Below, piece after piece: positions 22,923-57,367 of a DNA stretch of 64,000 nt. Position 1 is the stretch's first letter. The number at the start of each line of letters is the position of its first letter. The stretch is from the NCBI GenBank assembly GCA_017506865.1, contig JAFCMP010000541.1:1-64000 (forward strand). The letters run 5' to 3'. The translations under genes were made by a program, and so were the position numbers. Source of the stretch: Tribonema minus. Lineage: Eukaryota > Sar > Xanthophyceae > Tribonematales > Tribonemataceae. Below the pieces are notes generated by a model. The model had not been told where the DNA came from, did no database searches, and saw nothing but the letters and a program-made list of their open reading frames with translations.

Positions 22923-23686
22923 TGGCTGCGCTTTGCGTGTCAGCGTAATGTCAGCGTGTAGGACAGATGGGCGGCTGCTGGGTTTTGAGGCTGCTGTTGC
23001 TCGTGGGGACACGCAATGCGGCTCTTACACGTGAAATAGGGCCCCTTGGCAGCTGGTACCACTGCTGCTGCCGCCACTGTGCGGCAGCTGCTGCTGCCGC
23101 CACTGTGCGGCAGCCGGTGCAGCTGCTGCTCCTGCTTTGTTCAGATCGGGGGGTGAGAACTGCTTGTCTAGTGTGTACCAGAGCGTGCCTGGCGATGAGG
23201 GTGTGATACTAGCCTTAGTCCCTCGTTTGTCATGGCTTCTGTTGTGTCTAGTTGTGGCAGAGTCGTAAAAACTGGTGTATGCATTAACACCCCATACATA
23301 AATACATATCTAATGCTGAAACATACTTGCGCTTTGCAAATGTGTGTTTTTCTGGTGACCTCACCTCTGCATACGGCACGAGCTGAACAGTTAAGTTTGA
23401 AGTATCATCAAAGTTGAAGTCTCCGTTCTCTGCAGTGGTGTCTGCATTTAGTGGTTCGGTTGGGGACACAGCGCAGCTGCGCGGGTGCGCGATGCATAAG
23501 AAGCGCTCACTGCTGTTGTGCTGGCCTGCCCGACGAGCTGTCTAGGTTTGGTGTCGACACTTGCATTTCGTCAAGCAACAGGAGCGACTCGCTGCTGTCG
23601 ACGGCTAGCCAGCGATCCCGGCAGAGAGGCACTCGAAAGCTTTTTCGAGGATGCAAATAGGGCGGGGAGAGCAGCAGTGAGGGGAG

Positions 23687-35646: not shown

Positions 35647-38157
35647 TTAACCCGACTTGTGCATCTGGTGGCGGCCAGTGGTCTTTGTGTGCTGTCCACG
35701 GACGCGCACACCCCAGTAGTGGCGGATACCACGGTGGGAGCTGAGGGGAGGGGGGGGGGAGGGGAGAGAGGGTAGCCATGGTCAGATGCAGTGCATACAT
35801 TTGACGAAAGAAACAGTTGATCATGGATGACCTTGCTGGAATGCAGCATGGCACGCATTTCCAATCTACTCTTGAACGCCTGACGTCCTCCAGGAGGTAC
35901 ACAGTGTACTTCAACTTTCATCAAGCTGGGTCCCCGTGTTCCCCCTAGAAGTGCAGCAAGGTGCCTGACGGTTACTCAAAGACCACAAACTGTAAGACAG
36001 CAAGCCATATGCCCCACGATTACAATCTGCCAACTGTAACAGTGGTTTTCAGCGCCAATGCATCTGCCGCTGATGTCAGCGCCGCACACGTCTTTATGAC
36101 CTGTGAAACCCATGTCAACGATGGTGCAGCGCTGTTTCCACACGTGCATGTTGAAGCACGCTGGACGCTACATCGATAATGGCAAGTAATGCACTCAGAC
36201 TTCTGATCAGAGAGGGAGCAAATCTTCACCCTGGAGGCTCATCGGCAAAGCTCAAATTGAAGCTGATTCATGTGCGTCTGGAGGGCTGGCCCTCACCCTG
36301 AAGAAAAACCCTAAGCCTAAGGTGCACTGCGGCAGAAGGTGCAGGTGTGCACACCAAAGTTATCCAACGCTCTTGCGGGTCAAAATAGTGGCCGCAGCAG
36401 CAGCGAAGACACCTGCAACAGCACGATCAGTCCGCACCTACAGCAGCACCGCTGCGATCACAGCGCCATGCACCGTTTCTACAGCAACTGCTGCTGTTGC
36501 GCTGCGCTATGGCCGCTGCTGCTACACCCTACCCCTGAGGATGTAAAGTCAAAGGTGAGGGGTCGTGTGCGGCTTCTCAGCTGCGCAACTGCCCTCAGCC
36601 GACTGCATAGAGCCAGCACAGCACCCAGTGTTGCAGCTAACGCGAGTTCGCCAGTGACACGATCTCACTTGCGCTCTGGCTTTCTGAGTCTGCATTGCTG
36701 CTGGTACCCGTTGCTTCGGCCTCACGTCATGGCCACCTTTCCCAAAACTGAATTATGCCAGGCTACTGGAAGCTGCTGACAACGACCACAGGGGGTTTCG
36801 TGCAGCGCTTCCCCAGTCAATTCTGCAGCTGAGTCGCTCGTCATGATATCGCCACATGAGAGGGGGCGCCACCGTCACCGTCACCGCCACGCCCCCCACT
36901 CCTCATACCCTCCTTCCCCAGTTCCCCACGCACACGCGGCCAGCTCGCAACTGCCAGAAGCAGTGCTCTCCAGCAGTACTTCCGGCTTCGCCAGATCCGC
37001 AACGCGTCCCGCGCAGAGCTCCTGCAGCGCTGTGGGCCTGTGTGCCGGCATTAATAAAAGAGGACCTACCTGGCCGACTTGCAGCGTGGTGCCATTGTAA
37101 AGAATAGCGTGGAGCACAGCGTTCAAATTTTGATGGGTACTTGATAAATAGCATTCAGCCGCAGAGAGCAGCTGATGTTTGCAAGGGTGTTGATTCAGGG
37201 GGCGACATCACAGTAGCAGACGGCCATCTGGAGGTATGAACGCTGTGGCCAACAGACAGTTTCGCTTGCAGCAGCGCTCACCGGATCTTCTTCAGGCGCT
37301 CCAGGTCCTCGCGCAGCTTCTGTGCAATGTTCTGGGCAAAGGTCTGTCCGGACTTGCCGGTCTTCCAGTCGCGCTGCCTGTTGAGGAACCAGTCGGGCAC
37401 CTTGAACTGGCGGGGGTTCTGGATGATGGCCACCAGCTTCTCGATCTCGTCGGCTGTGAGCATACCAGCACTGTGCAGGAGAGCAGTAGAACATGGCGAT
37501 GTCAGCTTGGCGGTTGTAATGATGCTCAAAAAAGGTGGGTGACCAGAGGGGCATCGTGACAGGCAGCCCGATTCCGCCAAGCAATTATTGACAACTGCAA
37601 GTCTACAAAAGTCCCAGCCCTTGTGATTGTGCGTCGGAATACCGTGTTAATTGATAGGGAACAGTGATCAGGACACGAAGATCAAGCACAGCACAGTATG
37701 ACTGCAATACCGACAAGCGCCTGGTGAAGAGCACCGCAAAGCAGTAGCAACAGTCGGTTCAGACGCTCTACATCACAGATACTGCTGTGCTTACCGCTTG
37801 GTGTGGTCGACCTCAGCCTTCTTGCAGATGAGGTTGGAGAACCGGCGCCCAACACCAGGCACCTTGGTCAGGGCGTACATGACCTTGATGCGGCCATCGA
37901 TGTTGGTGTTGAGAATACGCAGAATGTGCTGGAAGTCGGGGCCCACCACAAGGTCCGACTGCAAGGCAATGAAAACCGAAGCAAAATGTTTGAGATTAGC
38001 GATGCAATCGCTCACACCATCCCGTCACAAACAACACTTCGCGATCCCACAGCAATTGGTCTGGTTTCTGTGCCACACGCCCAGACACTGGCCAGTGTGC
38101 ACACCCCAAGCACAGCCTTCCGTCCTGCTCCCTGTTTTATCCTGCGCAGCTCACCAT
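35647..38157 (-). CDS. RPS18: 40S ribosomal protein S18 (uS13), right-arm copy
   Basis: Second copy of RPS18. Exons on the minus strand are 38157-38155 (ATG only), 37958-37795, 37470-37282 and 35740-35647, encoding 149 residues that match the left copy. The C-run before the last acceptor is 10 bases here and 9 in the left arm, a typical homopolymer disagreement. The gene diverges from the complete Tudor-SN gene across 165 bases. Confidence 0.96.
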
Positions 38158-38322: not shown

Positions 38323-41300
38323 ATGGCTGCGGCTGGCACAGCGACGGTCAAGGCTGTACTCAGCGGAGATACCCTTGTCTTGATTGGCAGGTCAACAGGG
38401 GGGCCCCCACCGGAGCTGCAGTTATCCCTGAGCGGATTGGCAGCACCTAAGGTACGCCGATGGCATGCCGGTTTGCGTTGCGGCTCACTGCGCGGCTCTA
38501 GTTGATCATTTGCAAAGCGTTTCCGCGCTTGCGGGCCTTGCGGGCCTACGCTGCGCAACGTTTGCGGTCGTGTGTAGATTACTGTCAGCACCCGCCGGCG
38601 TCTGAACATGTCCGCAACGGCTGCGGGTGTCAAAGCAATAAGCTTAGGCACATCGCTATGATCCCCAAGAAGAATAGACCAAAATCTGATGTGCCGTCAG
38701 CTGCTGTCAAGCATTTCTGGCACATAACTCTGAGTGATCCGTATCTTTGACGTTTCCTGTCGAAGCTCGGTGTGAAGTTGGCCATATGTCTAATGTAAGA
38801 TGTATGTTGAAGAGTACATCAGCAAGTAACTGTCACTGGACGCCTCGTGCGACCCGTACCGAAGGGATAGTCAGCTGGCGTTCGACTTGCACCGATTGCA
38901 TGCGTTCGATCACAACTTCAAGTTCACCATTGCAGGTCATTGACCTCATTGGGTACAAGTTCGCGAAATTAGTCGCAGATATATGACAAGCAGTCGCACA
39001 CAATCGCACATGACCATGCGCAGGAGCAGCTGCGTGCATCAGTGCACAGTCAACGTGACGGCGTATGCTCTTTGCAAGGTGATGACCCCTGCTCTACACC
39101 CCGAGCTCAGACGCACACATAGCCACCGATGTTCATTGCTTGAGTCTGTTTGACGCGTACAATTCGAACTCCTCTGATGCCTGGTAGCTCAGCAGCTTGC
39201 AGCTCCCAACCAAACCTATGCCGCATTTCTGAACCAAGCACGCGGTCTCGCATGTGTTTTACACTCTTTCGATGCTATTTGCACGGCGCGCGCACGCAGA
39301 TCGGCCGCGGCACGGGCACCACCGAGGAGCCATGGGCGTGGGAGAGCCGCGAGTTCCTGCGCCAGCTCACCATAGGCAAGCAGGTCGCCTTCAAAGTCGA
39401 CTACAAGGGCGGCATGCGCACCTTTGGCACGGTGACCATGGACAATGAATCGCTCAACGCGGTCGTGGCGCGGGAGGGGTGGGCGAAGGTGAACGCGCGC
39501 GAGGGCGACTCTGCGACGGAGGCGGAGGAGCTGAAGCGCCTCGGCGCGGCGGCGGAGGCGGCAAGGAAGGGTATGTATGCAGGGCCGGGGCGGGGGCGCG
39601 ACGTGAAGTGGTCGGGCGTTGACACGGGAGCGCTGCTGCAGGCGCACCGGTGAGCAGGGTGGCAGCGGGCAAACGGAATCTGTGTTGTGAGCATGCGAGC
39701 GTGCGTCATGTTGACATGAAGAACTATTCAGACATGAGCGCAATCTGGAGCTGAAGTTGATGCGATCTCATGCAGGTACACACCGTAACCCCATGCGTGT
39801 AGGCCTTGTATGTGGTTGATTGATTGATTGGCAGTTTGTGCTTGCACATGAGACTTGGTCCGCCATACGGCTCAGTCGAGCGTAGCTCAAGGGCTTGCAG
39901 GTTTGGGCTACGATAGGGCAAGGCAGTTCATTCATTGCATTGGTTGGGGCAGGTCAGGTCAGTTTATCTGGTGAGCATCACCCCCTCTTCTGGCCTTTTG
40001 ACCGACCCTTTATCGTGTTGCACTTAATTTCTAGCCTTTGCTTGGAGATCAACATACCATTTGTGAGCTTCTCAGTGGTGCGTTCATGAGCATTCAGCCT
40101 CATGTACACAGCTAAGACCTACTGTAGAACCTGCGATCATGACCCAAACTTCAACCTACCCCTAACTTGAACCCTACAGTACATATTGCAGCTAATCCTA
40201 TCGTTTGATCTGTGCTAGTTTGCTTTATTGCGTTAGTGCTTTCCCTAATTGCAAGTGAAAGTGTTCATCAGTGTCGAGTCGCCTCAATACGCTAATGTTG
40301 CTGTATTGCAGTGGCGTGCTCACTTGTTTGTTCGGCATAGCTGACGGATGTATGTCAAGTGGCATTGACGTGTGTCAGTTGCACATAAAACTGACACACC
40401 GCCTTGAAGTACAAGTATGAAGGACTCAGAGGCAGTATAGAACATGAAACGCCTGTCCTGTTTGGCAGTACCCAGCTTCTGCGGCATGACGCGTGTCGCG
40501 CATCGAGAGCCTATATTGTGTGCTACGGTGCAGCGTCAACATGCACAACATTGCTGACAATATTGGCATATGCACATCCCTCTGGAAGGCAACCTAAAAC
40601 ACAAACTTCAACTACACCAGCCTCTACCTCATGTTGCACGCCATCATGGCGCACGCTTGCGGACTGCAGCCTGCGCCCTGGCAATACCATTGTGTACATG
40701 TGTGCTTCAGCTCATATTCAGCCATGTTCCCCAAGGGGTGCGTCCTGTACCGACACCAGCCCCTGTGCGCCTGAGCATCACCATCAAGCGCGTGCACGAC
40801 AGCTCGTGCATGCGAGCGATGTACACGCGCTCGCGTAATGTGTGGTCATAACTCAGGTCTGGGCGTGGGCGCTGGTTTCGTATGATGGACAGCATCACGC
40901 GCATACACGCAACAACGCGCGCCGCCAGCAGCGCGCGCACCGCGGCACTTGACACACCTGCACGCGGGCGTCTAACCCTGGTAGATGTGCAGGCACTGGC
41001 GCACTGTATTTGTACCACCGTCTACCATCGCCTGGACTGCGCTAATCGGCCTTGCATCGACGCATCTGGCGCTGTCTGCCGCTTTGGCGAGGTCGCCGTG
41101 TCAACCCAACCCTAATTTCAAACCCTAACCCCCTACACGCAGGTGTGCGCCGCTGCGCGTGGTCATCGAGCACGTGCGCGACGGCTCCAGCCTGCGCGCG
41201 TACGTCGTCGCCGAGAGCGCCATGATCAACTTTGGCCTCGCGGGCATCGCGTGCCCGCGTGTCAACGCTCCGCGCGTGGCGCCTCCCGCCGCCACGCCCC

Positions 41301-44300
41301 CCCCCGCCGCTGCCTCCAGCGGAGAGGGCGGAGAGGCAGCGACTAACGGCGGCGGCAGCGGCGGGGGGCCGGCGCCGGGCACCGCGGCGGCGGTGGCGGC
41401 GGCGGCGCCGCCGGCCGCGGCGGCGACAGTAGATCAGCCGGAGCCGTTTGCGCTGGAGGCGCGGCACTTTGTGGAGACGCGTTTGCTGAACCGCGAGGTG
41501 GACATACTGCTGGAGGCAAGTGGGGTGACGCAGTGGGGGGGGGGAGCAGGGGGGGGTCCGGGTGCGCAGGCGGTGTGCTGCTTCGTTGGGCACGATGCAG
41601 TGAGCGCTGTTTGGCGCGGCACGTGTTGGGGTGCGGGTGTCGTGTGGCAGTTCGCGCAGCGCTGGGTAGAGCTGCTGTGCGCCGCGTGCGACGTAGTGTC
41701 TCCCCTTTGCGTGCCAGCATGAGGGCGGCTGAAGGGCGGCCCTGCGATGGCTGAGCAGTGCTGCCATTATCATTATTTTTTTGTGCATCAGCACGCCGTT
41801 TATGCCATCAGCATCAGCACAGCCCTGTCGTACGTCCTTGTCGCCGCACCGCCAGTAGCCGCTCTCCGTATGTTTGGTTTTTATCCATGCTGTTGTTTGT
41901 CAAACGCGACAGTGTGCGCAACGTAGCGCGCATGCCGGACCGCCGCGCTGACCTGACGACGTGGTGACGCCGCACTCCACAACTTCAACTTAATACTCAT
42001 AACTTCATCTTCACATCACGCTACCGTCCATGCGCATGCTGATCGCCGCACTGACCTCACGACGCAGTGACGTGCACCACACAATTTCAACTTTAACTTC
42101 ACCCCCCCCCCCCCTCCCCTTGACGCTCAGGGAGTTGACAAGTACGACAACCTCTACGGCACGGTCGTGCACGCCAAGGGCAACATTGCGGTGGAGCTCG
42201 TGCGCAGCGGGCTGGCGCGCATGGTGGACTGGACGTCTGCCTTTCTGCCGCGCGACGTCGCCATCGCCATGCGCTCCGCGGAGAACGAGGCCAAGCGCGC
42301 GCAGCTGCGGCTGTGGCGCGGCTGGACGCCGCCCACGATCAAGGTGGGCGAGTCGAGTCAGAGTCGGAGTCCTGTGCCGCGTAGGTTTCTGAGTGCTGTT
42401 TCTGCAGAGCGCGGCATGAACTGTCGACAATGGGGAGCCAGTACAGTTGTATACTTGATGTGGTAGAGCAGGTAATTGCCAACGAGCTGAGCGCCATTGT
42501 CATCGCCATGCGCTTCGTCGAGAACGAGGCCAAGCGCGCGCACCTTCGGCTCTGGCGCGGCTGGACGCCGCCCACCATCAAGGTGCCCGAGTGGAGTCGG
42601 AGTCGGAGTCCTGTGCTGCAGCGTGGGTCGGAGTCTCGTTTCTGCAAGTGCGGCATGAACTGTCCACAGTGACGAGCCAACTCAGTTGTGTACTTCAACT
42701 TGATATGGTACAGCAGGTGTGCGCGGCATTGTCATCGCCATGCGCTCTGTTGAGATTTGCTTCATTTGCTTGCTGCTGTCACACCCACGCTGACGATTGG
42801 GCGCGCTTTGCCCCCGAATTGTCCAGGGCGTGCGGGAGTTTGCGGCGACGGCGGTGGAGATTCACAGCGGCGACCAGCTGACGGTTGTGGTGACGGACGC
42901 GGTTGGCAACAGGGAGGAGAAGCGGCTGGCGCTGGCGAGCGTCAAGGCGCCGCGCATAGGCAACCCGCGCCGCAAGTGAGTACGCTTTGTATGGTGTCAA
43001 GAGAAGTATGGTTAGAGAAGGGGTAAGAGTAGAGAAGGGGTAGGGTTAGGTTTACGGTGTAGGGGTTTGAATTAGGGCCTGCTGTGAGCTTGTATGCGAG
43101 GGCGGAGCGTCAAGGCGCCGCGCATAGGCAACCCGCGCCGCAAGTGAGTATGCATTGCATGTATGGTGTCAATAAGCAGGGTACGGGGGAGGGGTAGGAT
43201 TAGGTTCGCGCTCTAGGTTATGGTTGAGGTTCGTGCCTGTGAGCTTCAATGCAAGGGGCGAGCATCAACGCATCGCGCATAGGAAACCTGCGCCAAGAGT
43301 ACATATGCGTTGCATGGTGTCAATAAGTAGGGTTAGGGGTAGGGCAGGGGTAGGGTCGGGGTGAGGTTTTCAGTGCCGCGCCACAAGTGAGTATGTGTTG
43401 CATGATGTACGTAACGGTTACTAAGAAGTAACAGTTTAGGTCTGGGTGAGGGTTAGGGCAACTGTCTGCTGTGAGCTTCAATGCGAGCGTCAAGGCGCCG
43501 CGCAAAGGCAACCCGCGCCGCAAGTGAGTAGCGTTGCATGGTGTCAGAAGTAGGGTCAGGGGTAGTGCAGGGTTAGGATCACGATCACGTATTCAGTGCC
43601 TGTTTGTGTATCCGCATTGCTGGTGAAATTCAAGGCGGCAAGGGACTGCGCGCAGGCAATCTGCTGCTGCCGGCACGTACGCAGATTCAGATTTAGGTAA
43701 TCGGGCGGCGCTGACGTGCACTGGCCGCTGCTGCAGTGCCTGCGCTGAGCGCTCAGGCCTGCGCGCTCAACCCTGCTTCAACTGTACTCACCGGAAGTTC
43801 AACTCAACTAGCCAAACCCTACTTCAACCCTACTCGCCATAGCTTCAACCCTACACACCAACCCTACTTCAACCCTACTCAAGGTAACTTCAACTTTACT
43901 GACCAATGGTTCAACCCTACTTGCTGCGCCAGCGTGGACGACGAACCGTGGGCGGCGGAGGCCAAGGAGTCGCTGCGGCAGAAGCTCATCGGTCGCAGCG
44001 TCAAGGTGACGGTGGAGTACGAGCGCGACGTGCCCCAGGGGGAGGGGGAGGCGGTGCGCAGGGCATTTGCGACTGTGGAGCTGGGCAAGGGCGCCAAGGC
44101 CAAAAACATTGCCGAGGTATGCATGTACGGAGGATAGGTCACTGGCATACCCTTCATGCAGACGTGTAGGCGCCTGCGCTAGCCTTCACGCTGCTCCGCG
44201 TTCATGTTTTAAGAGGAGGTGAGACTGAGGACGCATACCTGCTCCTGACTGTTGCTCAAAGTGTATGAAGCCGAAGCACGGGAACTTAAACAAGGGACAC

Positions 44301-47300
44301 ACTTTTTATGTTGACCTCCGCCAGCCCCCGCGGCGACGTGGCAGGGTGCTCGTGTCGGGGGCCTGTCGTGTGGTGTCGGGTCGGAGGCTGTCGTGTCGGA
44401 GGTCTGCTTATGACGGTGCTCCACTGCTAGGAGTGCACCAGCTTGCACCACGCACACTTCAAACACTTGTAGCAACTTCACCATGTGACGCTCCCGCCTC
44501 CGTCTTAGGTGCTCGTTTCTCGTTTCAGAGGGGACCTGCTGACGGTGGTGCGCCACTCGCACTACGCGCACTTCACCACTTCAACTTCATCGTCTTGTAA
44601 CACTCCTACACTCCTGCCTCCGTCTCAGGTGCTTGTTTCAGAGGGCCTGCTGACGGTGGTGCGCCACTACCAGGACGAGCCGAGCTCGCACTAGCTCACT
44701 TCAACACTTGAGCAGCTTCATCTTGTGACGCTCCTCATCTTCACCTTCTTTACGCTCCTGTTGTCGCAACCAGGTGCTCGTTTCGGAGGGCCCGCTGACG
44801 GTTGTGCGCCACCGCGAGTACGACCCGCGCAGCAGCTCTCACTATGCACCCTTCAGCACTTTGAGCAACTTCACCTGCCAGGACGACCCACCCAGCAGCC
44901 CGCACTACGCACACTTCAAGCAACTTCATGCCGTGACGCTTCTGCTTCTGCGTTAGGTGCTCGTGTCGGAGGGCCTGCTGACGGTGGTGCGTCACCGCCA
45001 GGACGAGCCGCGCAGCCCGCACTACGAGGCGCTGGTGTCTGCGGAGCAGGAAGCCAAGGGCGCCAAGAGGGGCGCGCACAGCGAGAAGCCGCCGCCCGCC
45101 AACAGGACGGCGGACCTCACGGGCGACGCGCGCAAGGCCAAGCAGCACCTGCCGCACCTCCAGGTATGTATGTTGTTGTCGCAGTGTAACTTCAAGTTGA
45201 AGTACATGGGTCGGGTACGGGTACGGGCGACGCGCGCAAGGCCAGGCAGCGCCTGCCGCGCACCTCCAGGTATCATGTATGTATGTTATCGCAGCCCGGC
45301 TTCAAGTTAAAATACAGGGCCAAGGCCAACGTGCGCACGTATGCCGTCGCAGCAGCCTGCCTTTAAGGTGAGGTATCAAGTTGAGGTTACGGGCAACGCG
45401 CGCGCCATGCAGCACTGACACGCCTCCAGGCCAGCAATCTGCCCTCCACTTTAACTTCAGTTAGGCGTTGATTTTGCCTGAGACCCTGGAGTTCTTGGCT
45501 CCGAAACGGCCCTCCTCACAAGCGCACATCGACATTCGCATCTAACGTAGAGCTTTTTATGCTTGCAAGCCTTTGTCTACGTTGCATTTGCATTGCCATG
45601 GGACTCTCACTACGAGCGCGCGCTGACAGCTACACTGTAACCGGTGTGGGCGCGTTCAACGCTTTCGCAGTCGCCCGTTGCACACCACACCACAGGCGAA
45701 CGTCACGTAGCTTCGACGGCTGTGTTATGTAACCTCCCGCGCACCTTTCACGCCTTCATCGTGATTGCTCGTGGCTCATTGTACTTGCTCGCCCCTCCGC
45801 AGTCGGACGATGGCAGTTTTGTTGCTACCTTTTTCTTACCCGCGCTTTTAACGCGCATCGCGGTTGCTCGTGTCGCATTGCATCTCCGTCGCAGCGCCCC
45901 GGCGCAGGCATGCGCGCTCTCGTGGAGCACGTCTTCAGCGCCTCGTACGCCTTCCATTATTGTCCGCGGCACTCAATGCCACAGGCGAATGTATTGCAGC
46001 GTCGACAGCTGTGTCATATACCCTCCCGCGCACGTCTGACGCCTTCGTCGCGTGCCTTTCCCTGTGCGCTGCGCGCCGCCGCTGCAGCGCGCCGGCTCCG
46101 GCACGCGCGCCAACGTCGAGCATGTGTTAAGCGCCCTGAACGCCTGTCATTAGTGACTGTCGAGCACCGTGCAAGGCACCGCGTCGCGTGCATCCGCGCC
46201 CGCCTGATGGCAGTTACATTGACATCTTCCCTTCGACGCTGCGCGCTGTCAACAACGCTCATCGCGATCGCTGGTGGCTCACTGCATCTCCGCTGCAGCG
46301 CGCCGGCGGCGGCATGCGCGCTCTCGTGGAGCACGTGTCCAGCTGCTCGTACGCCTTCATTATTGCCTGCCGCACACCATGCCACAGGCGAACGTAACGC
46401 AGCGTCGACGGCTGTGTCATGTTCCCTCCCACGCACGACTAACGCCTTCCTCGCGTGGTTTCCTCCACGCTCCGTGCCGCCGCTGCAGCGCGCCGGCGGC
46501 GGCATGCGCGCCCTGGTGGAGCACGTGTTCAGCGGCTCGCGCTTCAAGGTGCACGTGCCCAAGGAGAACGTGGCCTTCATGCTGGCGCTGAGCGCGGTGC
46601 GCTGCCCGCAGGTAGGGCGCGACGGGCGCCCGGGGGAGCCGTGCGGCGACGCGGCGCGCGCGTTCAGCAGGGACGCCCTCATGCAGCGCAATGTCGAGGT
46701 CGAAGTGGTGAGTAAGCACCGCTACTGAGTCAGCTCCGCTTTCACGTCAAGTTGAAGCTCATGCACATATCTGTCAGTGTGTTCAGCAGGGACGCCCTCA
46801 TGCAGCGCAACGTCAAAGTTGAAGTGGTGAGTCGGAACCTCTACTTGAAGTTGAAGTCAAGTGAAGGGTCTAAGCTGCTGGACGCGCTCATGCAGCGCAA
46901 CATTGAAGTTGAAGTAGTGAGTCACATGATCAACTTCAAATTGAAGGTGAATCAGCGCAGCATGGAGGTTGACGTGGAGCGCGCGGGCGACACTTTAACT
47001 TGCAGTTGAGGTGATCTGAACCAACTCAGAAGTCGGCGGCTGCAGCCTGCCCGCTGCTGCTGCCATTGGCAATGTCGGAGGCACAACGACGATGCTGCTG
47101 CGGGTGTGACACCTCAGGGGGGGGGGGAGCACAAGCGGCGCCTCGCTCGCTAACGCGTACTTCAGCATGTCATCATCGCCTCGCATTGCTGGCGCGTCAC
47201 ATCGCTCAGCGCACCCCTGGCCAGCAGCAGCGGTGCCGTGCTCTGTGCACTGTATGTCTGCATGGTGTGGACGCTACCTCAGCCACCCGGGGGGGAAGGA

Positions 47301-50300
47301 CAGGCGGCCCTTGCTCGCTAGCGCGTACTTCCACATGTCATCATCGCCTCGCATTGCTAGCACGTCACATAGCTCAACGCACCCTTGGTCAACAGCAGCA
47401 GTGCCGTGGTCTCTCAGCTATCCCTACCCCTAACCCTGCTTAGCTCGACATGGGTTAACTAACCCTAACCCCATTCCTGACCCTACGCAGCTCGACATGG
47501 ACAAGAACGGTGTGGCGCTGGGCCACCTGTTCGTTGGTCAGGGCGACCAGCGACACGACTACGCGCTGGACCTTCTCAAGGCGGGCCTCGCGCGCTGTGA
47601 CGAGCGCGCCATCGACCGCATGGGCGTGGCGGGGCAGGTATGTATACTTGCATCAAGTGCCTACCTACCCTTAGCGTTAAGAAACATTTGGCTTGCAGCT
47701 GGCAGCGCTCACATCGTGATGCGCTCCGTTAGCATCTCACAGGAGGCAATGCTGGAGGTCGCACCTGCCTGCAGTGGGGCTGGCAATGCTGCTGCTGCGG
47801 CGGCTGCTGTGATGAGCGCCCATCGATCGCATGGGCGTTGCCGGGCAGGTATGTATGGAATTCAATTAAAAAATCGTACAGCTCTAGTTGACAAGGGGTG
47901 GTTAGCCGTCAGTGCCTTCCACCAATGACCGTGGTCGCCGCTGCTGCAGCAATTGCGACGAGCGCGCCATTGATCGCATGGGCGTGGTGAGGCAGGTTTG
48001 TATACTGTACTTAGACATGCACGGCGTGCCTACTTACACACTTGCTCGCGAGGACGCAGTGTCCATGTGGCAGCGCCCACATTGCAGTGCGCTTCATGGA
48101 CACTTTGCAATCCCTTTGGTTACATACTTCGAAGTAGTAAGTAAAGCTGGTGTTTGCACCTGCCTGCTGATGCTTCTGCGACGAGCGCGCCATCGACCGC
48201 ATGGGCGTGGCAGGGCAGGTACGTATGCTCTCGCAGCTTCACCTACCTGCCATTAGTGATTAGGGATGTTGACTTCTTTAATCTGGCAGCGCCCACATTG
48301 CGATGCGCTCCGTGGACAGCTTGCAATCGCTTTGATTACTTGGCAATGCTGGCGGTTACTCTTGCACCAGGCACAGCCATGTGCTCTGCATTGCCGCGTT
48401 GTCTCCTTCGTGAAGCAGTGACACAATCCGGCCACGCGTGCGTGGCCCTGCACTGCCGTCAAGGTCCCCCTCACCGCGGACACCGACATCCCCCGCACTG
48501 CCACGGCGCATCTTTTGTGCCACGCGCCGCCATGATCGCACCTGCACGCCCTGCACTACCGCGATGTTTCTCTCACCGTTACGCCCCGCATTGCGTTGCC
48601 ACGATGTGTACCCCGTGTCAGGCGCTGACGTTGGCTGCGCAATTCCACACCATGACGCTCACACTACGACCGCACTCGTACACGCCCTCCACCGCCGCGA
48701 CGTCTCCCTCACCGCCATGCCTCCCGCATCCCCCACCCCCCTCCCCCCCCCCCGTATATGCCCTCCACCGCCGCCATATTCCCCTCACTGCAACGCCCCC
48801 TGCATCGCCCCTTCCTCCCCCCACCCACCCGCCATTACAGGCGCTGACGAGCGCCGAGGCAGCGGCGCGCGCCGCCAAGGTCGGCATCTACTCACCAGAA
48901 GCGGAGGCCGCCGCGAACGCCAACGGCCGTGGCACCGCGCAGCCTGCAGAAGAGGAGGCGCCGCTGAGCGTTGAGCTTGTTGCAGCACGGCTCAGTGATA
49001 TCGAGGACGGCGGCGCGTTCCACCTGCAGATGGGGCCGCCGGCGCTGCTGAAGCAGGTGCCTTGATGTTTTGAAGTTGAAGTTGAGGGGGAGCATCGCAT
49101 GCCTTGAGGTTGGAAGGTTTGGGCGTTGTCTGCTAGTAGTCTGCTGGCAGCATCTCCCTGCGGCAATCACAATGATGCTATGGCAGCCTTGTGACTCGCA
49201 CACTCTGCCAAACACAAATTCTGCATCGCTTAGGTGCGCCATATAGCTACACCCAGTGACCAGGTTTTGCAGTACTGTAGTGCTCTGGCTCTGCCTCCAG
49301 GTCAAGCCACGGGTGGCAACAGTCAAGGTGAGCTAGGCATTGGCGGTGCGTCAGTCAGAGCACACAAGAGTGTCCTGACCCTCATCCAAGGTTTGGGGTT
49401 AGGGTTAGGAGAAAACAGAGCTCCAAGTACCCCCCCCCCCCCCAATCCGCGCTCTGACTCGCCTGATGCCAACCAACTGCCCACTCTTGTTTTGCCAATC
49501 CCAGCCTTGCCACAGTTCCAAATCCTTAGTGCTCACTCACCCTTCAGCTCTGGCCGCAATCCGCGAGGAGGAAGCCAAGATAGCAGCGCTCAAAGTGTCC
49601 CCCCCCCTGCCTGCCCTCCAACCCCTCTGACGCCCCTCATAACGCCAGCATCAATTCTCTCAAATACTGCCCCTGAAAGTCATCCGTATAACCCTACCTT
49701 CAAAACCTACTTCAACCCCGGCAGGTGGAGGCCAAGATGGCAGCGCTCAAGGCGCAGGTCGGCACCGGCGGCGCGCCGATGGAGCACCGCCGCGGCACCA
49801 CGTGCGCAGCGCTGTTCGATGCTGGCGACGGCGCGGGGGAGTGCTGGTTCCGTGCGCGCATAGAGGCGGCGGCGCGCGGCGGCACCGCCGTCACGGTGCG
49901 CTACATTGACCACGGCAACTGCGCGACTGTGCCCGCCGGCAAGCTGCGCCCGCTCGACAGGTGCGCGTGACGAGCAGCAGTACACTTCAACTGACTGCTT
50001 CAACTCATACTTCAATCCTTCAAGTCTCAACCCATACTTCAACTAATACTTCAACTGCACAAGCATCGGGAAGGATGAGCAGCATACTTCAATTTAAGAG
50101 GTGTACTTGCACTCAGGAGGAGTGTGCGCTATGCGAACGTTGGGAAGGTGCTGGCTGTGTGCAGGAGCGTACCTGACGACGGCTGCGGCGCAAGGCTTGT
50201 GTCATGCATGCATTGACCGCAGCAGCCGCGCCGCCGGCGAGCTGCGCTGGCTCAACCGGATTGTGACAGAGTCTACATGGGCAGATGGCAGTTGACCTAT

Positions 50301-51666
50301 CTTGTTCAAGTGGCTGTCTGCTCTCACTCAGTAGGGGTCTGTTGCTGCGGTGCGGGTGATTGGCCAATGCTGACTGCGCGCGGAGCACAAAGGCCATGAG
50401 CACCGTTCTCTTGCACGACTACAAGGCTCGTTCCTTGGCCGCGCATCTGTCTACCGCACGGGCCTTCAGGGGCCTTTTTCCTCGTGCGCTTGGGAAATGT
50501 GTCTTGTCTTCTGTGCGTCAATCAGCTTCTGCCCCTCCTCATGTCATGGAAGCGCAGGGCATTTCATGCTACCACCTGTTGCTCAGCTAGTGTCTTCGCC
50601 TCTTGTGTCACTCGCTGCCTCTTGTCCGTGCTTCCCCACCAACCATCTCGCACTGAACCGCTCCCCCCCCCGCCCACCTCCACCCCCCAGGACGTACTTC
50701 GACCTGCCGCCGCTAGCCAAAGAGTGCGTTCTGGCCTACACGCGCGTGCCCAGCCTGACGGAGGAGTGGGGAGGCGACGCTGCGGGGCTGCTGCAGGAGA
50801 TGGCATGGGGCAAGGAGCTCAAGGCGCGCATGCTGGGCAGAGACGCCACTACGGGCAAGCCCATGGTGGCGCTGTACGAGGAGGGCGAGCAGTCCATACA
50901 GGAGGTGAGCGGAGTGTAAATCACAACAAGTAGGGTTAGGGGTGCTTCGGGTTAAAGTTCAGGATTAGGGTTAGGGCTAGGGCTAGGGTTGGCAAGCCCA
51001 TGGCGCTGTACGAGGAGGCGAGCAGTCCATACAGGAGGTGAGTGGGAGGGTATTGCACTGCAAGTAGGGTGAATGAAGGTCAGGATTGGAGCAGCTTAGG
51101 GGTAGAGTTAGGGTTAGGGTTAGCAAGCCCGCCACCATGCCTCGTCAGCGCGTCGGCTGTTGAAAGCATCATGCTCGACAGAGTGGCACTCCCTTTTGCC
51201 GCACCTGAACGTCAGGCCCGTGGCCGAGTTTACGGTTTCCAGAGTTGCAGGATGGGACCACGCAAACCACAGTGCGGTGCGCAGCTCACAGTCTGCTCGG
51301 TGTACCGCGCACCGAAGACAGCGCGCCATCTGGTAGCACGGCGGCCGCCGCTGTTGCCACAAAACCAAGTGTGAATCGCGCACTTCAATCGCTTGTCGCC
51401 CGTATTGCCGTCACCATTAACCACACACAAACCAAAATCTCACCACTAAACTCGCGCGCACGGCGCAGATCATGGTCGGCGAGGGCCTGGCGCGCCTCGC
51501 CAAGCGCGCGGAGAAGGCGGTGGCAGCAGCGCAGCAGAGCGGCGCGCCAGCCGCCGCCGCCGCCGCGGAGCTCGTGGCACGTCTCAAGGAGGCGCAGGAG
51601 GCGGCGCACAAGGGGCGCGTTGCCATGTGGCGCTACGGCGACTGCACGTCTGACGACGAGAACTGA
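38323..51666 (+). CDS. Tudor staphylococcal nuclease (Tudor-SN/p100/SND1), complete
   Basis: A conserved eukaryotic RNA-binding protein of transcription, splicing and stress granules. Thirteen exons: 38323-38451, 39300-39649, 41143-41515, 42131-42343, 42827-42975, 43933-44116, 44957-45163, 46489-46707, 47491-47637, 48841-49056, 49725-49960, 50691-50904, 51469-51666. They total 2,835 bases and 944 residues (human 910), with phases agreeing at every junction. Staphylococcal-nuclease repeats: SN1 about 1-160, SN2 165-350 (IEHVRDGS), SN3 356-525, SN4 536-690 (VEHVFSGSRFKVHVPKENV). The Tudor domain (745-810, WFRARIEAA then VRYIDHGN) is set within a fifth, split SN fold ending AMWRYGDCTSDDEN. SN2 carries an Ala/Gly/Pro-rich insert at about residues 201-257. 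Intron 3 has a GC donor; its position is fixed by the plant-like LEGVDKYDNL reading. Introns 4-10 and 12 hold copies of adjacent exon edges. The first four exons lie in the palindrome. Confidence 0.95.
42344..42826 (+). repeat. Exon 4 tail copies in Tudor-SN intron 4
   Basis: The last 82 bases of exon 4 recur at 42,501-42,582, still open (AMRFVENEAKRAHLRLWRG) and ending ATCAAG then GTGCCC. A shorter relic is at 42,727-42,754. Flanking intron sequence (a GTCGGAGTCCTGTGC region and a GCGGCATGAACTGTC region) is repeated too, so the unit is about 239 bases. The palindrome ends inside this intron. Confidence 0.85.
42976..43545 (+). repeat. Exon 5 tail and donor array in Tudor-SN intron 5
   Basis: The exon 5 edge (GGCAACCCGCGCCGCAA then GTGAGT) is repeated at 43,104-43,143 and 43,484-43,523 with almost no change. 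Degraded forms lie at about 43,258-43,297 and 43,373-43,386. The spacers carry GGGTTAGG-like runs and TGCATGGTGTCA. Confidence 0.85.
43785..43930 (+). repeat. ACTTCAACCCT minisatellite before exon 6 acceptor
   Basis: Units of AACCCTACTTC and variants (TTCAACCCTAC, CTTCAACTTTAC) repeat about ten times, ending only a few bases before the CAG acceptor at 43,932. It combines the CCCTAA-like and ACTTCAA motifs seen elsewhere and probably acts as the polypyrimidine region. Confidence 0.75.
44507..44925 (+). repeat. Exon 7 head copies in Tudor-SN intron 6
   Basis: The start of exon 7 (GTGCTCGTGTCGGAGGGCCT and onward) occurs three more times upstream, at about 44,511-44,575, 44,630-44,692 and 44,775-44,858. 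Each is preceded by AG like a real acceptor, and a partial fourth piece lies near 44,877-44,925. Copies end within the exon and are separated by ACTTCA-rich spacers. Confidence 0.85.
45225..45435 (+). repeat. Exon 7 tail relics in Tudor-SN intron 7
   Basis: GGGCGACGCGCGCAAGGCCA followed by a CACCTCCAGGTAT edge recurs at about 45,225-45,272. A weaker copy is near 45,398-45,433. Both resemble the last 45 bases of exon 7 and its donor. Confidence 0.7.
45660..46480 (+). repeat. About 200-base tandem array with exon 8 heads
   Basis: Segments around the exon 8 start (CTGCAG then CGCGCCGGCGGCGGCATGCG) recur at about 45,886, 46,077 and 46,290, before the real one at 46,489. That is a period of 190-213 bases, with a flank resembling CACAGGCGAACGTAACGCAG repeated in step. 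Copies are increasingly similar to the true exon towards the 3' end. Confidence 0.8.
46708..46985 (+). repeat. Exon 8 tail and donor copies in Tudor-SN intron 8
   Basis: The exon 8 edge (GACGCCCTCATGCAGCGCAA through GAAGTG then GTGAGT) is repeated at 46,780-46,826 and 46,874-46,916. A relic lies at about 46,952-46,982. TTGAAGTTGAAGT motifs lie between the copies. Confidence 0.85.
47804..48218 (+). repeat. Exon 9 tail and donor copies in Tudor-SN intron 9
   Basis: The final 45 bases of exon 9 (GACGAGCGCGCCATCGACCG and onward to GGGCAG then GTATGT) recur at 47,804-47,848, 47,952-47,995 and 48,174-48,218. Donors are GTATGT, GTTTGT and GTACGT, giving four potential donors in series. The last copy is nearly perfect. 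Confidence 0.9.
49566..49595 (+). repeat. Exon 11 head relic in Tudor-SN intron 10
   Basis: GAAGCCAAGATAGCAGCGCT resembles the exon 11 start GAGGCCAAGATGGCAGCGCT about 160 bases upstream of it. A single copy. Confidence 0.55.
50990..51037 (+). repeat. Exon 12 tail and donor copy in Tudor-SN intron 12
   Basis: GGCAAGCCCATGGCGCTGTA and onward to CAGGAG then GTGAGT duplicates the last 50 bases of exon 12 with a few small deletions. It is flanked by GGGTTAGGG runs on both sides; a GCAAGCCC relic follows at 51,123. Confidence 0.85.
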
Positions 51667-53211
51667 GTTGTCGTTGTGCCCAGCAGCAGCGGCAGCAGCA
51701 GCAGCGCTCACCAGAGGCAGGAGCAGCAGCAGCGCGCTGCGGCGGCGCTGCCGCTGCGGGGCGGCGCGCTAATCAGAGGCGGCAGCAGCAGGGATCAGCG
51801 ACGACGGTACGGCTGCGTTGGTGCGTGGCGGCGGTGCTTTCAGAGGCTGTAGTGGCGCTTTGCGGCAGCGGGGCTTTGAGGCACTGTGAGCAGCCCAAGT
51901 GGGTGGGAATGTTGGGGGGGGGGGGGGGGGTCACGGGCAAGTGCCTGCACATGATACAGCACAGCACACACACACAAACACACGCATGCACACGGCACCT
52001 GTGCGGTGCCGCACCAAGTTGAACTTCAAGATGAACTTGAAGTGGAGCTCGTGTGCAAAAACGAGTGTAGGTTTTGCACATGGCCCTCTGTGCGTTCTGA
52101 GTGTTTCGAGGTTGTGATATCTGCCCAATATAGGGCTGTTACAGTCACTGTGGCACTTGTGCTGGAGCAGTTCTAGTTGGCAAACTGTATCAGGTGGAGG
52201 GGCTCAAGGGGGCGGCACAGGATGGTTAGACAGGGTTGCGATGCATGTTATCACACAAGGGCCCTTGCAATGCAACACTGAAGCACCTCCAGACTTGTGA
52301 AACAGTGACATTATGGCCATGCGGTGTTGTGTTTGTGTGCGTTGTCAATGGTGTGCTGATTGAGTCACAACCTTGTCTGCATGGTCTCACAAGCAGAGCC
52401 GGCCCGGCCACATTTCAACTGGCTAATAAGCCGCGCTTCACAGCCGCTGTCATATCGTCACAGACAGGAGGATGCTTCAAATGCTGGCCATTGAACTGCG
52501 TGGATGCTTCCAATGCTGGCCATTGAGCAGCGTGCTATACATGCACTTTCAAATTGTGTCCACGGAGCGCACCTCCACTGATGTCCTGCAAAGCGCAGGG
52601 GCCTTCCCATCCGCACTGCGGACGTCAACCTGTTGAACCCGAATTTGCCGAGATTCTCAAGTGTCAGCTGATTACATACTTCATGGGCAGGGAATGATGC
52701 GTGACCAGCATGGAAGCCAGGCAGAGCAGCGCACTTCATGAGAAGCTTAAGCGAGAGTGGGTGTGTAGTTATTGCAATGCTGGGGGGGTGGCCCAATGAA
52801 GCAATGTACCTGACAGTGTGTATGATACACAGACACAGTGGTCTGAACCACGCATTGTGCACAGCGACGCGCTCTTGTTGCGAGTCATCGCTACAGCTGA
52901 ACATTCAAGTATTCGATTCGCACAGCACAGAATGGCACGCGCAGTCTGAGGCAGCAGTAGCCGCTGCTGCTGCTGTTTGACAGAGATGAGTACTTACCGT
53001 AATGACTCATGACCCCCTGACCTCTCAGGGGTCTGCCCGTGCAAAGCTCAACTTACACTTTGGATACAGAAGAGCAACGGGGCGTGCTCTGACTGCGCGA
53101 CTCGCGCATTACATGTCTGTGCCCCAGTGGTGACATCACCCCCCCCATCAGCGCAACTCAGCGCCTGAGCAGCGCTGCTGTGGCGCAGCGGTACGTAAAC
53201 AACAGCCTTTT
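51667..53211. other. Convergent intergenic region Tudor-SN / RBR
   Basis: These 1.5 kb hold both 3' UTRs. They begin with CAG-rich sequence (51,680-51,790), then a long G-run near 51,914-51,930. A two-unit repeat with core CAATGCTGGCCATTGA lies at about 52,470-52,530. A hairpin (GACCCC to GGGGTC, 53,011-53,033) lies about 180 bases past the RBR stop codon. Short open frames here look spurious. Confidence 0.6.
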
Positions 53212-56200
53212 TCAATTCCATGAGGCAGCAGGCCTCCTCCGCAGCCGCCGACGCAAGCCCAATGTCTGCTGCACCGGCGGCCACACCAGCAGCTGTTGCT
53301 GCTGCAGCTGCACCGGCGGCACTGCCCTCTGTTGCTGCTGCTGCAACACCGGCGGCCATACTAGCTGCTGCTGCTGCTGCTGCTGCTGCTGCAGCTGCTG
53401 CAGCAGCACCGGCGGCAACGCCACCTGCTGCTGCTGCTCCTGTTGCACTGCCGGCGACGCCGCCGCCGCCGGCTGCGGCTGCTGCTGCCGGCGCCACCAC
53501 CGCCGCTGCAGCGCGACCCTCTCGGTCAACGCGGCGACCAGCGCGCGCACGCGCCGCCGCGCCGCGCTGCCGCCCGTCACGCGGCACTCGTGCACGACGC
53601 GCATCACGTGCGACGCGGGGTGGCGCTCCGCGGCGGCGCCGCCGCCCGCGCAGCGCGCGCACAGCGCCAGGCTTGGGCAGTGCACGCACTCCAGCAGCGG
53701 CCCGACTATCGGCACGCGGCAGCAGTCGCACGGCAGCGGCACGCCGGGCGCGACCATGTGGGCGGCGCGCGCGGCGCGGCGCGGCGGCGGCACGCGCGCT
53801 GCTGCTGCTGCTGCTGCTGCTGCTGCCGCGGCGGCGGCGGGCGGCGCGTCGACGGTGTAGGCGGGCGCCTTGAACCAGGAGAAGTGCTTGCCGCAGCCTA
53901 CGCCGTAGCCGCCGCTGATGTCCGTGTCGCGGCCGCAGACCATGCGGTCGCAGCCCTTGTCCTTGAAGATGAGCTTGCCGCAGTTGGGGCACGGCTTGCA
54001 GGCGCGCCGCTTGTACTGCGAGGTGGGGGTGCGGGGGGGGGGGAGGGGGGGGGGGGGGGCTGTGTAGGCACGCATTGCAGCCAGTCGAAGGGAGGCAGGT
54101 GGCACTTACAAGCAGAAGCGGGAGGTTATTGAGCGGCGAAATGAGGGCGTGTGCTGTGGAGAGAACACGCACGCACCTTCTCCGGGAGCGCGTCCTCATC
54201 GCGCACAACATACCGCCACGTTTTGAATGCATCCAGAAAACTCGCAAGTACAAGTATATCCATGCCCAGTACGTGTACATGCACGCGCATACATGGTGTG
54301 TACTTCGAAGTACATGATATACACGTGGGGAGAACACACGCACCTTCTCTGTGAGTGCATCGTCGTCGTGCCGCGCCTGCAGCGCCGCCGCCGCGGCGCG
54401 CGCCCTCTCGCACTGCTCCGCGCGCTCATCCTGCTGCTGCGTGTCGCGTAGGTAGGCGGCGCGCCCCTCACGTTGCCACGCGTCCCTGGCCAACAGGCGA
54501 CAGACGGGGGGGGGGGGGGGGGGGGGGGGGAAGGGGGGGGGGCGGGGTAGGGCGGGTTTCGAAACGTCAGCGCCGTCAAGTAAATGCGAGTAGGTCATAG
54601 GTTGGTCCCGCGCTACATTTTGCTGCTTTGAGGTACACATTCTGTTGCTTAGGGTCAAGATCAGGATTAGGTTTAGGGTTAGGTGTGTCAGTGCGCCTGT
54701 CGCACTGGTGCACGTCCTGCACTAGAGCGAGGTCCCATGCGGCAGTGAAGTGATGAGCAGTGCTGCAGACGAGTGCTGTTGGTTACTGCTTTACACGGTG
54801 TGGCGCTAAATAGCAGCGAGGGTGAATAACAAAACTGCATTCATTGCATACTTTACCAATAGTTCAGAGTACATATCAAGGAGGGCGTGTGCGGCACAGC
54901 ACGCATGCGGAGTGCCCTTCGCGCTACCATTAATGCAGCTCCAGGCGTTGAGGCATGACGTAAGTAACTAGGGTTTGGCACCGAATCCCGAAATACAAAA
55001 GTGTCGCAAAGCACACGCGCCTCATGATACGGGAGTGTGCAACATTTGTGCTGTCCAAATGCTGGCGAAAACAGCCCAGCATCGACAACGATGCGCAGCT
55101 GCTCAACCACAGAGTGAGTCTCAATCAGAGCGTGAGTGATCAGAGAGTGAGTTCTGAGCGTCCGCACAGCACAGTGAGATGCATGCACGTATGCACCAAG
55201 CCGACTGCAGGGCACCGCTCAACCGCAGAGTGAGTCACTGAGTGAGTCACTGAGTCACTGAGTCCGCACAGTCCCGTCAAGGGCATGCACAAGGCCGCCT
55301 CTACTTACAGCAGGGCCGCTCGACCACAAATTGAATCTGAGAGTGAGTAAGTGAGTGAGTCACTGAGGTATTACGCACCAGGCGGCCTCCAGGGCTGGCA
55401 GCTCCTGGCAGTTGCACCGGTAGTGGTAGGGGTACCGCTTGCACACGCGGCAGAAGTCCGTGTTGCAGCAGGGACATGTCACGCGCTTCGGGCCCCTTTC
55501 ATCCAGGATCATGCTGCAGGCAACGGGGTCGAAGGGCAACAGTTGCAGAATTGAGAGTCACACAGAGGCTACAAAGAAGTTGTTTTCTGACCAGCAAGCT
55601 GGGTTTTGTTCATTGGGTGCTGGTGTGGTAGCTGTTCTGCAGGCACATTCAAGGTGGCCTACGATTGGGGCCACGTGGCGCAGTTCGCTTGATCCAGCAC
55701 CAGCACTCACCCTTGAGGGGTGGCCGGTGAATCATCACTTTCTGATGGAGATTATTATCAGCACCAGAGGGCAGACAAGATGTCCCGTGCGCTGCACACG
55801 GGTATTCATCACTCGCCAGCACTACATCAACAGCAGGTGGCTTGATCTGCGTGCTGTCACAGAGTGCCTCGTGCCAGCACCCAGGCCATGCCTGACGGGG
55901 CGGTGATGGACTGCTGCGACAAGCTAACAGCGCGCAGTGCAATGCAATGACGGCGAGCTTGCGCGACAGGGAGTGGGCACAAGCTAGTGCCCGAAGAGCC
56001 GGCGCTCACGCGTTCCTGCGTGCGCGCAGCGAGTCTGAGTCGCAGTCTGAGTCGCAGTGCTCCTCTCGTGCTGTGCCGTTGCTGCTCAAGGTGAGCGCGA
56101 TGCAAGTGCCGCAGCGCAGCCCAGTGACACACCGCATGACGCGTCAGCACTCACTTCAACTTCATGTCACTGCTCAGCAGTAGCGCAGCTCAAGTGTGTG

Positions 56201-57367
56201 TCAGTGCTCACCTACACACAGTACTGCCCCCCCCCCCCCCCCCCCCCCCCGCCCCCCCCCCCCCCCCCCTCTATGCTACGCCCTCCCGCAGCCACATGTC
56301 AAGCGGCCGGAATCACCCGTATGCCTGTGGAGCGGCAGCAGCGCTCACCTGTTGTCGCACGACGGCAGCACGCAGCGCAGCGCGCCCAGCTCGCTGAGCC
56401 CGCGCAGCTTGAAGGTGAGCTCACACAGCGCCTCTACGCGCCGCCCCTCCTCGATTGCCGCCTCCCACGCAGCGTCGGGCGCCGCGCCGCGCTGCTGCGC
56501 GCCGAACTGCCACCAGTGGCCGTCGCCGTCGTCGCCGCTGGTGCTGGCGGTGGCGGCGGGGATGCGGAGCCCGCGCTTGAGCACTGCTGCCTGGACGTCA
56601 GCCTCGGAAAACGTGTAGGCGCAGCTAGGCGGGGGCAGAAAGGTGAGGGGGGCGAAGGGGCAGGTAGGTATCGCCTGCCGCGACAGGACCTGCTCGCGCA
56701 CGTGCGCATAGAGGCACTCGACGCACAGGCGGTGGCCGCAGCCGCAGGGCATCTCCGTCATGTCGTCCTGGGACACGATGGCGCAGCAGATGACGCACTC
56801 CTCTGCATCGTCGGCGTCGGTCTCAGTGGAGCTGGCAGAGGCGGCGGTGAGGCATGCGGTGGCGGCGGAGGCGCTCCCTGGCTCCTGCCAGGGCACATGA
56901 AACCAGCTGATCGCGGCGGCGCAGGTGGCGGCAGATCGTAGCAGGTAGTACCAGCTGCTGTCAGCAGAGGGTGGCCACAGGTTGTCAGCTAGTTCATCGC
57001 CTGTATAGCACGAGCTGGCCGCAGCGGGAAAGATGCCTGCGTCGGAGAGCAGCTCTCGGACACGCGGCAGCGCCAAATGCCGGAGCCTGTCGCCTTTGAT
57101 GGCAATAAGATTGTGGATGTGCCGCGGGGCGTAGCCGAGCTGCCGCAGAACGCGAGAGAGGGCCCCTTGCCAGTCTGGCTCAACATCGGCAGTATGCAGT
57201 TGACACGTTAGCGAGAAATGGCGAGCGAAGTGATGGCTACGCTAAATTGGTTTTTGATCGTCATGTCATGTATTGTTGAACACTCAAAGCCACTTGCGAA
57301 CAGACATGAGCAGGCCGCATGAGTGGAGTCCTCACTGACCTGCGTGAGTAGCTGCGGGAGCAGCCAT
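53212..57367 (-). CDS. RBR-type E3 ubiquitin ligase with ZZ finger and Gln-rich tail
   Basis: A RING-between-RING ligase, which takes ubiquitin from an E2 onto its own RING2 cysteine before the substrate. Five exons on the minus strand (57367-57340, 57174-56349, 55513-55379, 54485-54344, 54015-53212) give 644 residues with consistent phases. RING1 starts at Cys136 (CVICC, then MPCGCGHRLCVECL). The IBR spans the exon 2/3 junction (RCVLPSCDN, then VTCPCCNTDFCRVC). RING2 is CPNCGKLIFKDKGCDRMVC with the expected catalytic Cys near 399. After a 14-Ala run comes a ZZ-type zinc finger at about 473-520 (CDCC, CVHCPSLALCARC, paired His). The tail is Gln-rich, with repeated PPV units between Gln runs. 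Exon 1 (MAAPAATHA) is short and inferred from its donor and phase. RBR plus ZZ on one chain is uncommon. Confidence 0.88.
53280..53480 (-). repeat. CAG-rich repeat encoding Gln/PPV tail of RBR
   Basis: On the sense strand, imperfect CAG runs alternate with units encoding ALPPV, VWPPV or AVPPV, repeated about five times. It lies in the last exon and stays in frame. Length polymorphism is likely. Confidence 0.8.
54016..54343 (-). other. RBR intron 4 with exon 4 tail copy and C-run
   Basis: On the sense strand a second copy of the exon 4 edge (GACGCGCTCCCGGAGAAG then GTGCGT, 54,174-54,195) follows the real one at 54,344. A long C-run (54,033-54,059, read as G on the plus strand) ends 17 bases before the acceptor of exon 5. 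Confidence 0.75.
55085..55376 (+). repeat. GAGTGAGTCACT repeats in RBR intron 3
   Basis: Repeated GAGTGAGT and CACTGAGT units occur in three clusters within the intron. On the plus strand they look like donor sites, but the gene lies on the minus strand, so they are a simple tandem repeat. Confidence 0.7.
56227..56268 (+). repeat. Poly-C tract in RBR intron 2
   Basis: More than 20 C, one G, then about 18 C. On the sense strand this is a G-run about 80-120 bases after the exon 2 donor. Confidence 0.9.

Follow-up and report, generated by a model that had tools for sequence, protein, structure and literature searches.

Exon edges are copied into adjacent introns in several genes of Tribonema minus. 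The window is the whole stretch of DNA analyzed, 64,000 nucleotides of contig JAFCMP010000541.1. Existing introns have probably grown as segments straddling the exon-intron border underwent local tandem duplication, with the spare units becoming intron. Seventeen local arrays were counted in six genes. An exon edge is included in 13 of them, with an overlap of 5-82 nt, and the other four lie clear of any edge. The 13 edge arrays fall in four genes, one of which (RBR) is weak, and eight of them belong to Tudor-SN (Table 1). The initial annotation had claimed that introns were enlarged as exon edges and their splice sites were tandemly duplicated in repeated rounds, and this claim holds across several genes with variously diverged copies.

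Arrays were counted by self-blast with low complexity masked, from pairs of 35 nt or longer with an E value no higher than 1e-3 and a lag of no more than 1300. A tail array is made up of exon tail, donor, and intron start, repeated head-to-tail. A head array is made up of intron end, acceptor, and exon head in the same arrangement. Alignments of the copies cross the exon-intron junction. Head-to-tail units of exon edge, splice site, and adjacent intron are the mark of boundary-spanning tandem duplication. The longest exon part is 82 nt, and none of the 17 arrays holds a whole exon. Whole-exon duplication for alternative splicing was rejected on this basis and because the copies have no significant codon-position bias. 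Identity to the original ranges from 0.82 to 1.00 among 36 copies, 32 of which differ by 6-18%, in agreement with the earlier description of copies graded from near-perfect to decayed.

Exon-edge copies and their gene context

Six genes were modeled in the window, each called as a single open frame, with 29 introns comprising 23,106 bp. Donors are GT in 27 introns and GC in two (at 41516 and 29424). The models are backed by Pfam, and three of the six are also backed by PDB matches. The Tudor-SN protein contains four stretches of Pfam SNase plus TUDOR and matches SND1 chains in PDB (3bdl, E 2.9e-56). The structures matched by RPS18 and PDX1 (Table 1) are presumably all plant proteins.

Tudor-SN exons are numbered from 39300-39649 as exon 1. 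Exon 2 (41143-41515) encodes an Ala/Gly/Pro-rich stretch inside the nuclease-like part of the protein. A 27-nt exon (49301-49327) is optional, as the frame is open without it too. Both ends of this exon are included in the 57 edges tested. The C-terminus of the RPS18 model seems wrong, and the introns analyzed are unaffected. The first RPS18 exon is 3 nt long and has no tail test, hence 57 edges and not 58. The last coding exon of RBR contains low-complexity tandem repeats (53268-53488) rich in Gln, Ala, Val, and Pro. The words ACTTCAA, TTGAAGT, GGGTTAG, and CTAACCC occur at 0.26-0.95/kb in introns of the six genes, at 0-0.33 in unassigned DNA, and at 0-0.26 in exons. Searches of the window with Rfam (gathering scores) and ARAGORN (bacterial code) gave no matches. 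Single scans of viral contigs with a 122-aa piece of Tudor-SN, and of genome contigs with the whole modeled protein, confirmed no relatives.

Table 1. Genes, palindrome, and exon-edge copies in the window
Feature	Position	Strand	Description
Near-perfect palindrome	1-42414		No spacer; 99.6% arm identity; center about 21207.5
HhH (helix-hairpin-helix) gene	26471-30696	-	HHH_8-like; Pfam E 3e-4, under curated cut-off
HhH intron 4 head copy	26600-26755	-	Acceptor + 5 nt of exon 5; score 28 vs shuffle maximum 23, 0/28 other introns; blast E 2e-6
HhH intron 2 tail array	28948-29492	-	Last 39-68 nt of exon 2 + GC donor; 4 further copies; mirror about 12919-13463
HhH intron 1 head array	29666-30093	-	Acceptor + 27-32 nt of exon 2; unit 126; mirror about 12318-12745 (left palindrome arm)
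ChaC	31373-33225	+	Single open frame
RPS18	35647-38157	-	Open frame; best solved-structure matches 4v3p, 8jiw
Tudor-SN (SND1-type)	39300-51666	+	13 exons modeled, upstream first exon left out; 12 introns; one open frame
Tudor-SN intron 3 tail array	42262-42755	+	Last 82 nt of exon 3 + donor + intron; unit 239; partial third copy
Tudor-SN intron 4 tail array	42934-43600	+	Last 42 nt of exon 4 + donor; 3 further copies mapped
Tudor-SN intron 5 head array	44401-45026	+	Acceptor + start of exon 6; 4 copies mapped, 35-65 exon letters aligned
Tudor-SN intron 6 tail array	45119-45430	+	Last 45 nt of exon 6 + donor; 2 further copies
Tudor-SN intron 6 head array	45680-46539	+	Acceptor + first 46-58 nt of exon 7; 3 further copies
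Tudor-SN intron 7 tail array	46662-46946	+	Last 37-46 nt of exon 7 + donor; 2 further copies
Tudor-SN intron 8 tail array	47594-48339	+	Last 42-43 nt of exon 8 + donor; 3 further copies
Tudor-SN intron 10 head copy	49566-49593	+	23/26 nt of exon 11 head
Tudor-SN intron 11 tail copy, weak	50211-50256	+	Decayed; donor lost; score 32 vs shuffle maximum 27, 0/28 other introns
Tudor-SN intron 12 tail array	50854-51130	+	Last 51 nt of exon 12 + donor; one further copy
RBR/IBR gene	53212-57205	-	Single open frame
RBR intron 3 tail copy, weak	54156-54371	-	Blast E 7e-6; exon-only score 21 vs shuffle maximum 22, not passed
PDX1	58209-63988	-	Open frame; best solved-structure match 5lnt (PDX1.1)
PDX1 intron 4 tail array	59800-61562	-	Short-unit copies of exon 4 tail + donor, plus 880-884-bp tandem duplication

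Each edge was represented by a 40-mer of exon letters only and scored against the adjacent intron. Fifteen of the 57 edges outscore all 200 shuffles of their own intron as well as all 28 other introns. At a score of at least 34, 13/57 edges match their own intron, vs 0/46 for the intron on the other side of the exon (maximum 25). On the antisense strand, none of the 57 edges reaches 34. Self-alignment of introns against flanking exons, the check proposed earlier, was thus run within the window, and at a score of at least 32 the own-intron excess is 14/57 edges vs 0/1,596 comparisons with other introns. At 28 or above, the counts are 15/57 and 5/1,596. Introner or transposon copies that resemble exon edges by chance would also place repeated sequence in many introns, as is observed here. 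This explanation is extremely improbable, given the cross-intron counts of 0/1,596 at 32 and 5/1,596 at 28, and introners were rejected on this comparison of exon-edge copies.

The copy signal is concentrated at the edge. Exon windows are positive in 20% of cases at 0-19 nt from the edge, 11% at 20-39, 2.5% at 40-59, and 0% at 60-119. At 120 nt or more, 29/410 windows are positive (7%), all in the low-complexity exon 4 of RBR, its last exon. Duplicated intron windows make up 7-8% within 59 nt of a splice site and 20% at 150 nt or more, as expected if the copies sit deeper in the intron. The HhH intron 2 head scores 35, and copy mapping found no array there. This score probably reflects a resemblance of the exon 3 start to the exon 2 tail array rather than an array of its own.

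In Tudor-SN, tail copies follow exons 3, 4, 6, 7, 8, 11 (weak), and 12, and head copies precede exons 6, 7, and 11. The copies in introns 10 and 11 are weaker; they passed the exon-only test and stand outside the 17 arrays. All Tudor-SN arrays listed in the initial annotation are covered once its numbering is mapped, with its exon numbers one higher up to its exon 9 and equal thereafter if it missed the 27-nt exon. The same pattern had been described in four other genes. It is present in HhH (introns 1, 2, and 4) and PDX1 (intron 4), and is weak in RBR, where the intron 3 copy is found with intron letters included and fails with exon letters only. ChaC has no exon-edge copy by either the edge test or copy mapping. 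The GC donor array of HhH intron 2 carries GCAAGT in all four copies vs GCGAGT in the original.

The process had also been called general and ongoing. It does not look general within the window, where the edge test found no exon-edge copies in ChaC, RPS18, or four of the five PDX1 introns. Their absence from ChaC and RPS18 argues against a process that strikes all genes equally. As for ongoing activity, there is one near-fresh event, the 880-884-bp tandem duplication in PDX1, which is possibly an assembly error.

Assembly quality and array placement

The palindrome at the start of the window is probably a fold-back assembly artifact. Its arms differ at 66 places, and 52 of these cluster in the 3.2 kb of arm nearest the center. 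By a simple rule, 41/55 arm indels have a homopolymer context. HhH, ChaC, RPS18, and the first three modeled exons of Tudor-SN lie inside it, and their mirror copies in the left arm therefore cannot be counted as independent occurrences. The palindrome does not account for the diverged arrays.

Noisy long reads that give false repeats could in principle have produced the copies themselves. A 42-kb palindrome with mostly homopolymer-type differences fits this explanation, as does the 99.4% identity of the PDX1 duplication. An assembly artifact is nonetheless very improbable as the source of the arrays, since 32/36 copies are 6-18% diverged and carry private substitutions, which read doubling cannot create. 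Assembly error was rejected for these diverged copies and is possible for the PDX1 880-bp event alone. This duplication, the youngest of the events, begins 61 nt inside the exon. At its junction, a point in the intron is joined to that exonic point with one extra base and no evident microhomology. The junction could fit end joining; it is a single event and possibly an assembly error.

Placement was compared with a null of random duplication plus survival, in which introns were collapsed to estimated pre-expansion lengths. Edge arrays number 13/17, vs 5.8 expected (P 0.0005). Because exon originals do not decay, edge arrays remain visible longer, and exon letters were masked for this reason. 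Nine of the 13 edge arrays remain after masking, vs four interior arrays (P 0.01 at P(edge) 0.34). By blast-pair criteria, the 12,050 bp of unassigned DNA contain no arrays, with 5.9 expected; this DNA may hold UTRs and introns of unmodeled genes. Exon parts never exceed 82 nt (P 0.0017, with the threshold chosen after viewing the data).

These four results favor a refinement of the tandem-duplication explanation, where duplication itself is targeted to exon-intron borders to a degree that survival would not leave, e.g., by co-transcriptional breaks or by replication stalled at splice junctions. Such targeting is conceivable, and we consider it unlikely. The numbers are small and the placement statistics come from one window picked for this pattern, with 8/13 edge arrays in one gene. 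Outside Tudor-SN, edge arrays are 5/7 (P 0.049). The null hangs on guessed pre-expansion intron lengths, and at P(edge) 0.45-0.5 the masked count is not significant (P 0.07-0.13). Exon parts overall are only mildly shorter than under uniform placement (z -1.75). In addition, TRF short-unit repeats (up to 46 bp) exist in unassigned DNA, e.g., at 23062-23114, 52470-52534, and 58161-58196, and are outside the array count. The count also excludes the low-complexity repeats in the last RBR exon (about 53268-53488). The edge bias is a hint and not proof, and purely position-blind duplication may be insufficient.

Copy evolution and spare splice sites

Copy evolution was measured in nine arrays with at least two copies. 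Five PDX1 copies, which belong to the latter half of the 880-bp duplication, were left out of the dinucleotide, indel, private-change, and site-score counts, which keep 31/36 copies. The same five are counted in copy mapping, the premature-stop test, and the identity range. Four of the 36 copies have no mapped junction and fall outside the site counts.

Copy-private changes affect 21/353 letters at codon position 1, 15/351 at position 2, and 28/353 at position 3. Most are at position 3, and the difference is not significant (chi-square p 0.14). The rate at intron letters, 24/436, is similar to that in exon parts. Columns where all copies stand against the original number 1, 0, and 5 of 125 at the three codon positions, and 7/152 among intron columns. 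Private changes lack a significant codon-position bias and shared ones are scarce at positions 1 and 2, as expected of a conserved exon original and drifting copies. Constraint thus seems to act on the original in the exon, with no sign of it in the copies. Without polarization, mismatches number 27, 24, and 70 at positions 1, 2, and 3, an apparent enrichment at position 3. We take this to arise in part from changes on the side of the original that are counted once per copy. Among indels in the exon parts of copies, 4/14 are multiples of three. Coding constraint on the copies was rejected on the indel lengths and the lack of significant codon-position bias.

Splice dinucleotides are retained at 58/62 positions of the copies (tail 40/42, head 18/20). 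This is slightly better than the surrounding exon letters (803/930) and not a clear difference. It runs opposite to the expected loss of harmful sites. Spare donors have a mean score of 7.17 (n=19), compared with 8.58 for real donors and -5.77 for other intronic GT/GC. Seven of the 19 match or outscore the real donor of the same intron. The same is true of 8/9 spare acceptors relative to their real acceptor. The earlier claim that spare splice sites are supplied stands at the level of sequence, with 17/19 donors and 5/9 acceptors above the 95th percentile of other intronic sites. Use of the 32 mapped sites would give a premature stop in 31. The extra length is a multiple of three in 8/32. The exception is 45895, the farthest spare acceptor of Tudor-SN intron 6 (45895-46488), where the frame stays open with 198 extra residues.

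Strong spare sites, intact dinucleotides, and the open frame at 45895 are what would be expected if expression were tuned by the copies, whether they act as poison exons, as decoys for splicing, or as alternative ends of exons. Such functions are improbable. Besides the stops and the extra lengths, private substitutions lack significant codon-position bias, and just over half of the spare acceptors exceed the background 95th percentile. Given the premature stops and the absence of clear coding constraint, nothing in these sequences shows that the copies are useful. Since spare sites are strong yet nearly all lead to a premature stop, the real site must be picked by context. Most simply, only the real site would belong to an exon with a partner site. 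The outermost site presumably stays in use, as judged by the open frame alone.

The earlier reading had also tied the arrays to AGGT-type intron gain, where introns are born by tandem duplication of exon segments. The introns do contain direct repeats of exon sequence, as such birth would leave. The tie did not survive, since intron 3' ends do not match upstream exon tails (0/28 with p < 0.05, smallest 0.08) and intron 5' starts do not match downstream exon heads beyond about chance level (1/29 with p < 0.05, RBR intron 1, 0.027). Only one of 57 comparisons is thus significant, and AGGT intron birth, whose signature is missing, was rejected as highly improbable.

Under the preferred explanation of boundary-spanning duplication in existing introns, a segment across the border would duplicate locally and head-to-tail. 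The first donor of a tail array, or the last acceptor of a head array, would remain part of the full exon and be kept by the spliceosome. With this outermost site retained, the protein would be unchanged and the extra units would turn into intron. Exon definition would account for the choice, with a copied edge having no partner site of its own. Freed copies would mutate neutrally, and purifying selection would hold the original. Arrays may extend through unequal exchange between copies, as suggested by the partial third copy in Tudor-SN intron 3 (lag 239). No function of the copies would be required. A bolder version is doubtful: borders would be duplication hotspots in this lineage, the constrained edge would act as a master that seeds copies together with a splice site, and introns would grow outward with the outermost site always taken.

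Transposons or anonymous repeats are the usual account of intron lengthening. In these genes, much of the intron sequence reveals its own origin, and copies of graded age come with a built-in constrained reference. The arrays are natural competition assays, in which similar donors or acceptors stand in a row and nearly always only one keeps the frame open. The rule of splice-site choice (exon definition, first-come, or position) is directly testable on them. Ready-made splice sites accumulate, and new exons or introns could arise from them.

Comparison with known systems

The human 6-16/IFI6 gene encodes an interferon-induced transcript, and Turri et al. reportedly described in it a minisatellite with many splice donors. 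It is said to be a single locus with a short repeat. The likeness lies in tandem repeats that give several splice donors at an exon end. The arrays described here have longer units, number 13 in four genes, and occur on both donor and acceptor sides.

In potato RdRp, a boundary-crossing tandem duplication made a new intron, according to the available text of the report (PMC4974935). As here, the duplication crosses an intron-exon boundary and copies the acceptor and exon head. One duplication in potato gave a new, used intron and altered exon structure, whereas many duplications here merely lengthen many introns. ATP2A1 (Hellsten 2011, as summarized in the available parts of PMC4974935 and PMC3443670) is similar in that gene-internal DNA with splice-site sequence was tandemly duplicated. 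It differs in that the signature of intron birth is missing here, and the segment duplicated here spans an existing border.

Daphnia neointrons contain internal direct repeats, proposed in the available text to come from repeated staggered breaks that lengthen introns (PMC4202315). Some of these repeats within introns copy terminal exon bases. As far as that text goes, the Daphnia exon-intron repeats are 4-12 bp and lie at opposite ends of the intron, whereas those here are in tandem and include up to 82 nt of exon plus the site. In Chlamydomonas and Volvox, introns have the highest density of tandem repeats, with an enrichment close to intron-exon junctions (PMC3887541, available part). This plant and green-algal survey covers units of 1-50 bp only, and exon-edge copies are not described in that part of it.

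A search of titles and abstract beginnings, with few subscription papers, found no recurrent exon-edge tandem arrays in introns, which is weak evidence of absence. Single boundary-spanning duplications are already known. New here are their recurrence in 13 arrays, their presence on both splice sides, and the competent-looking sites left in place.
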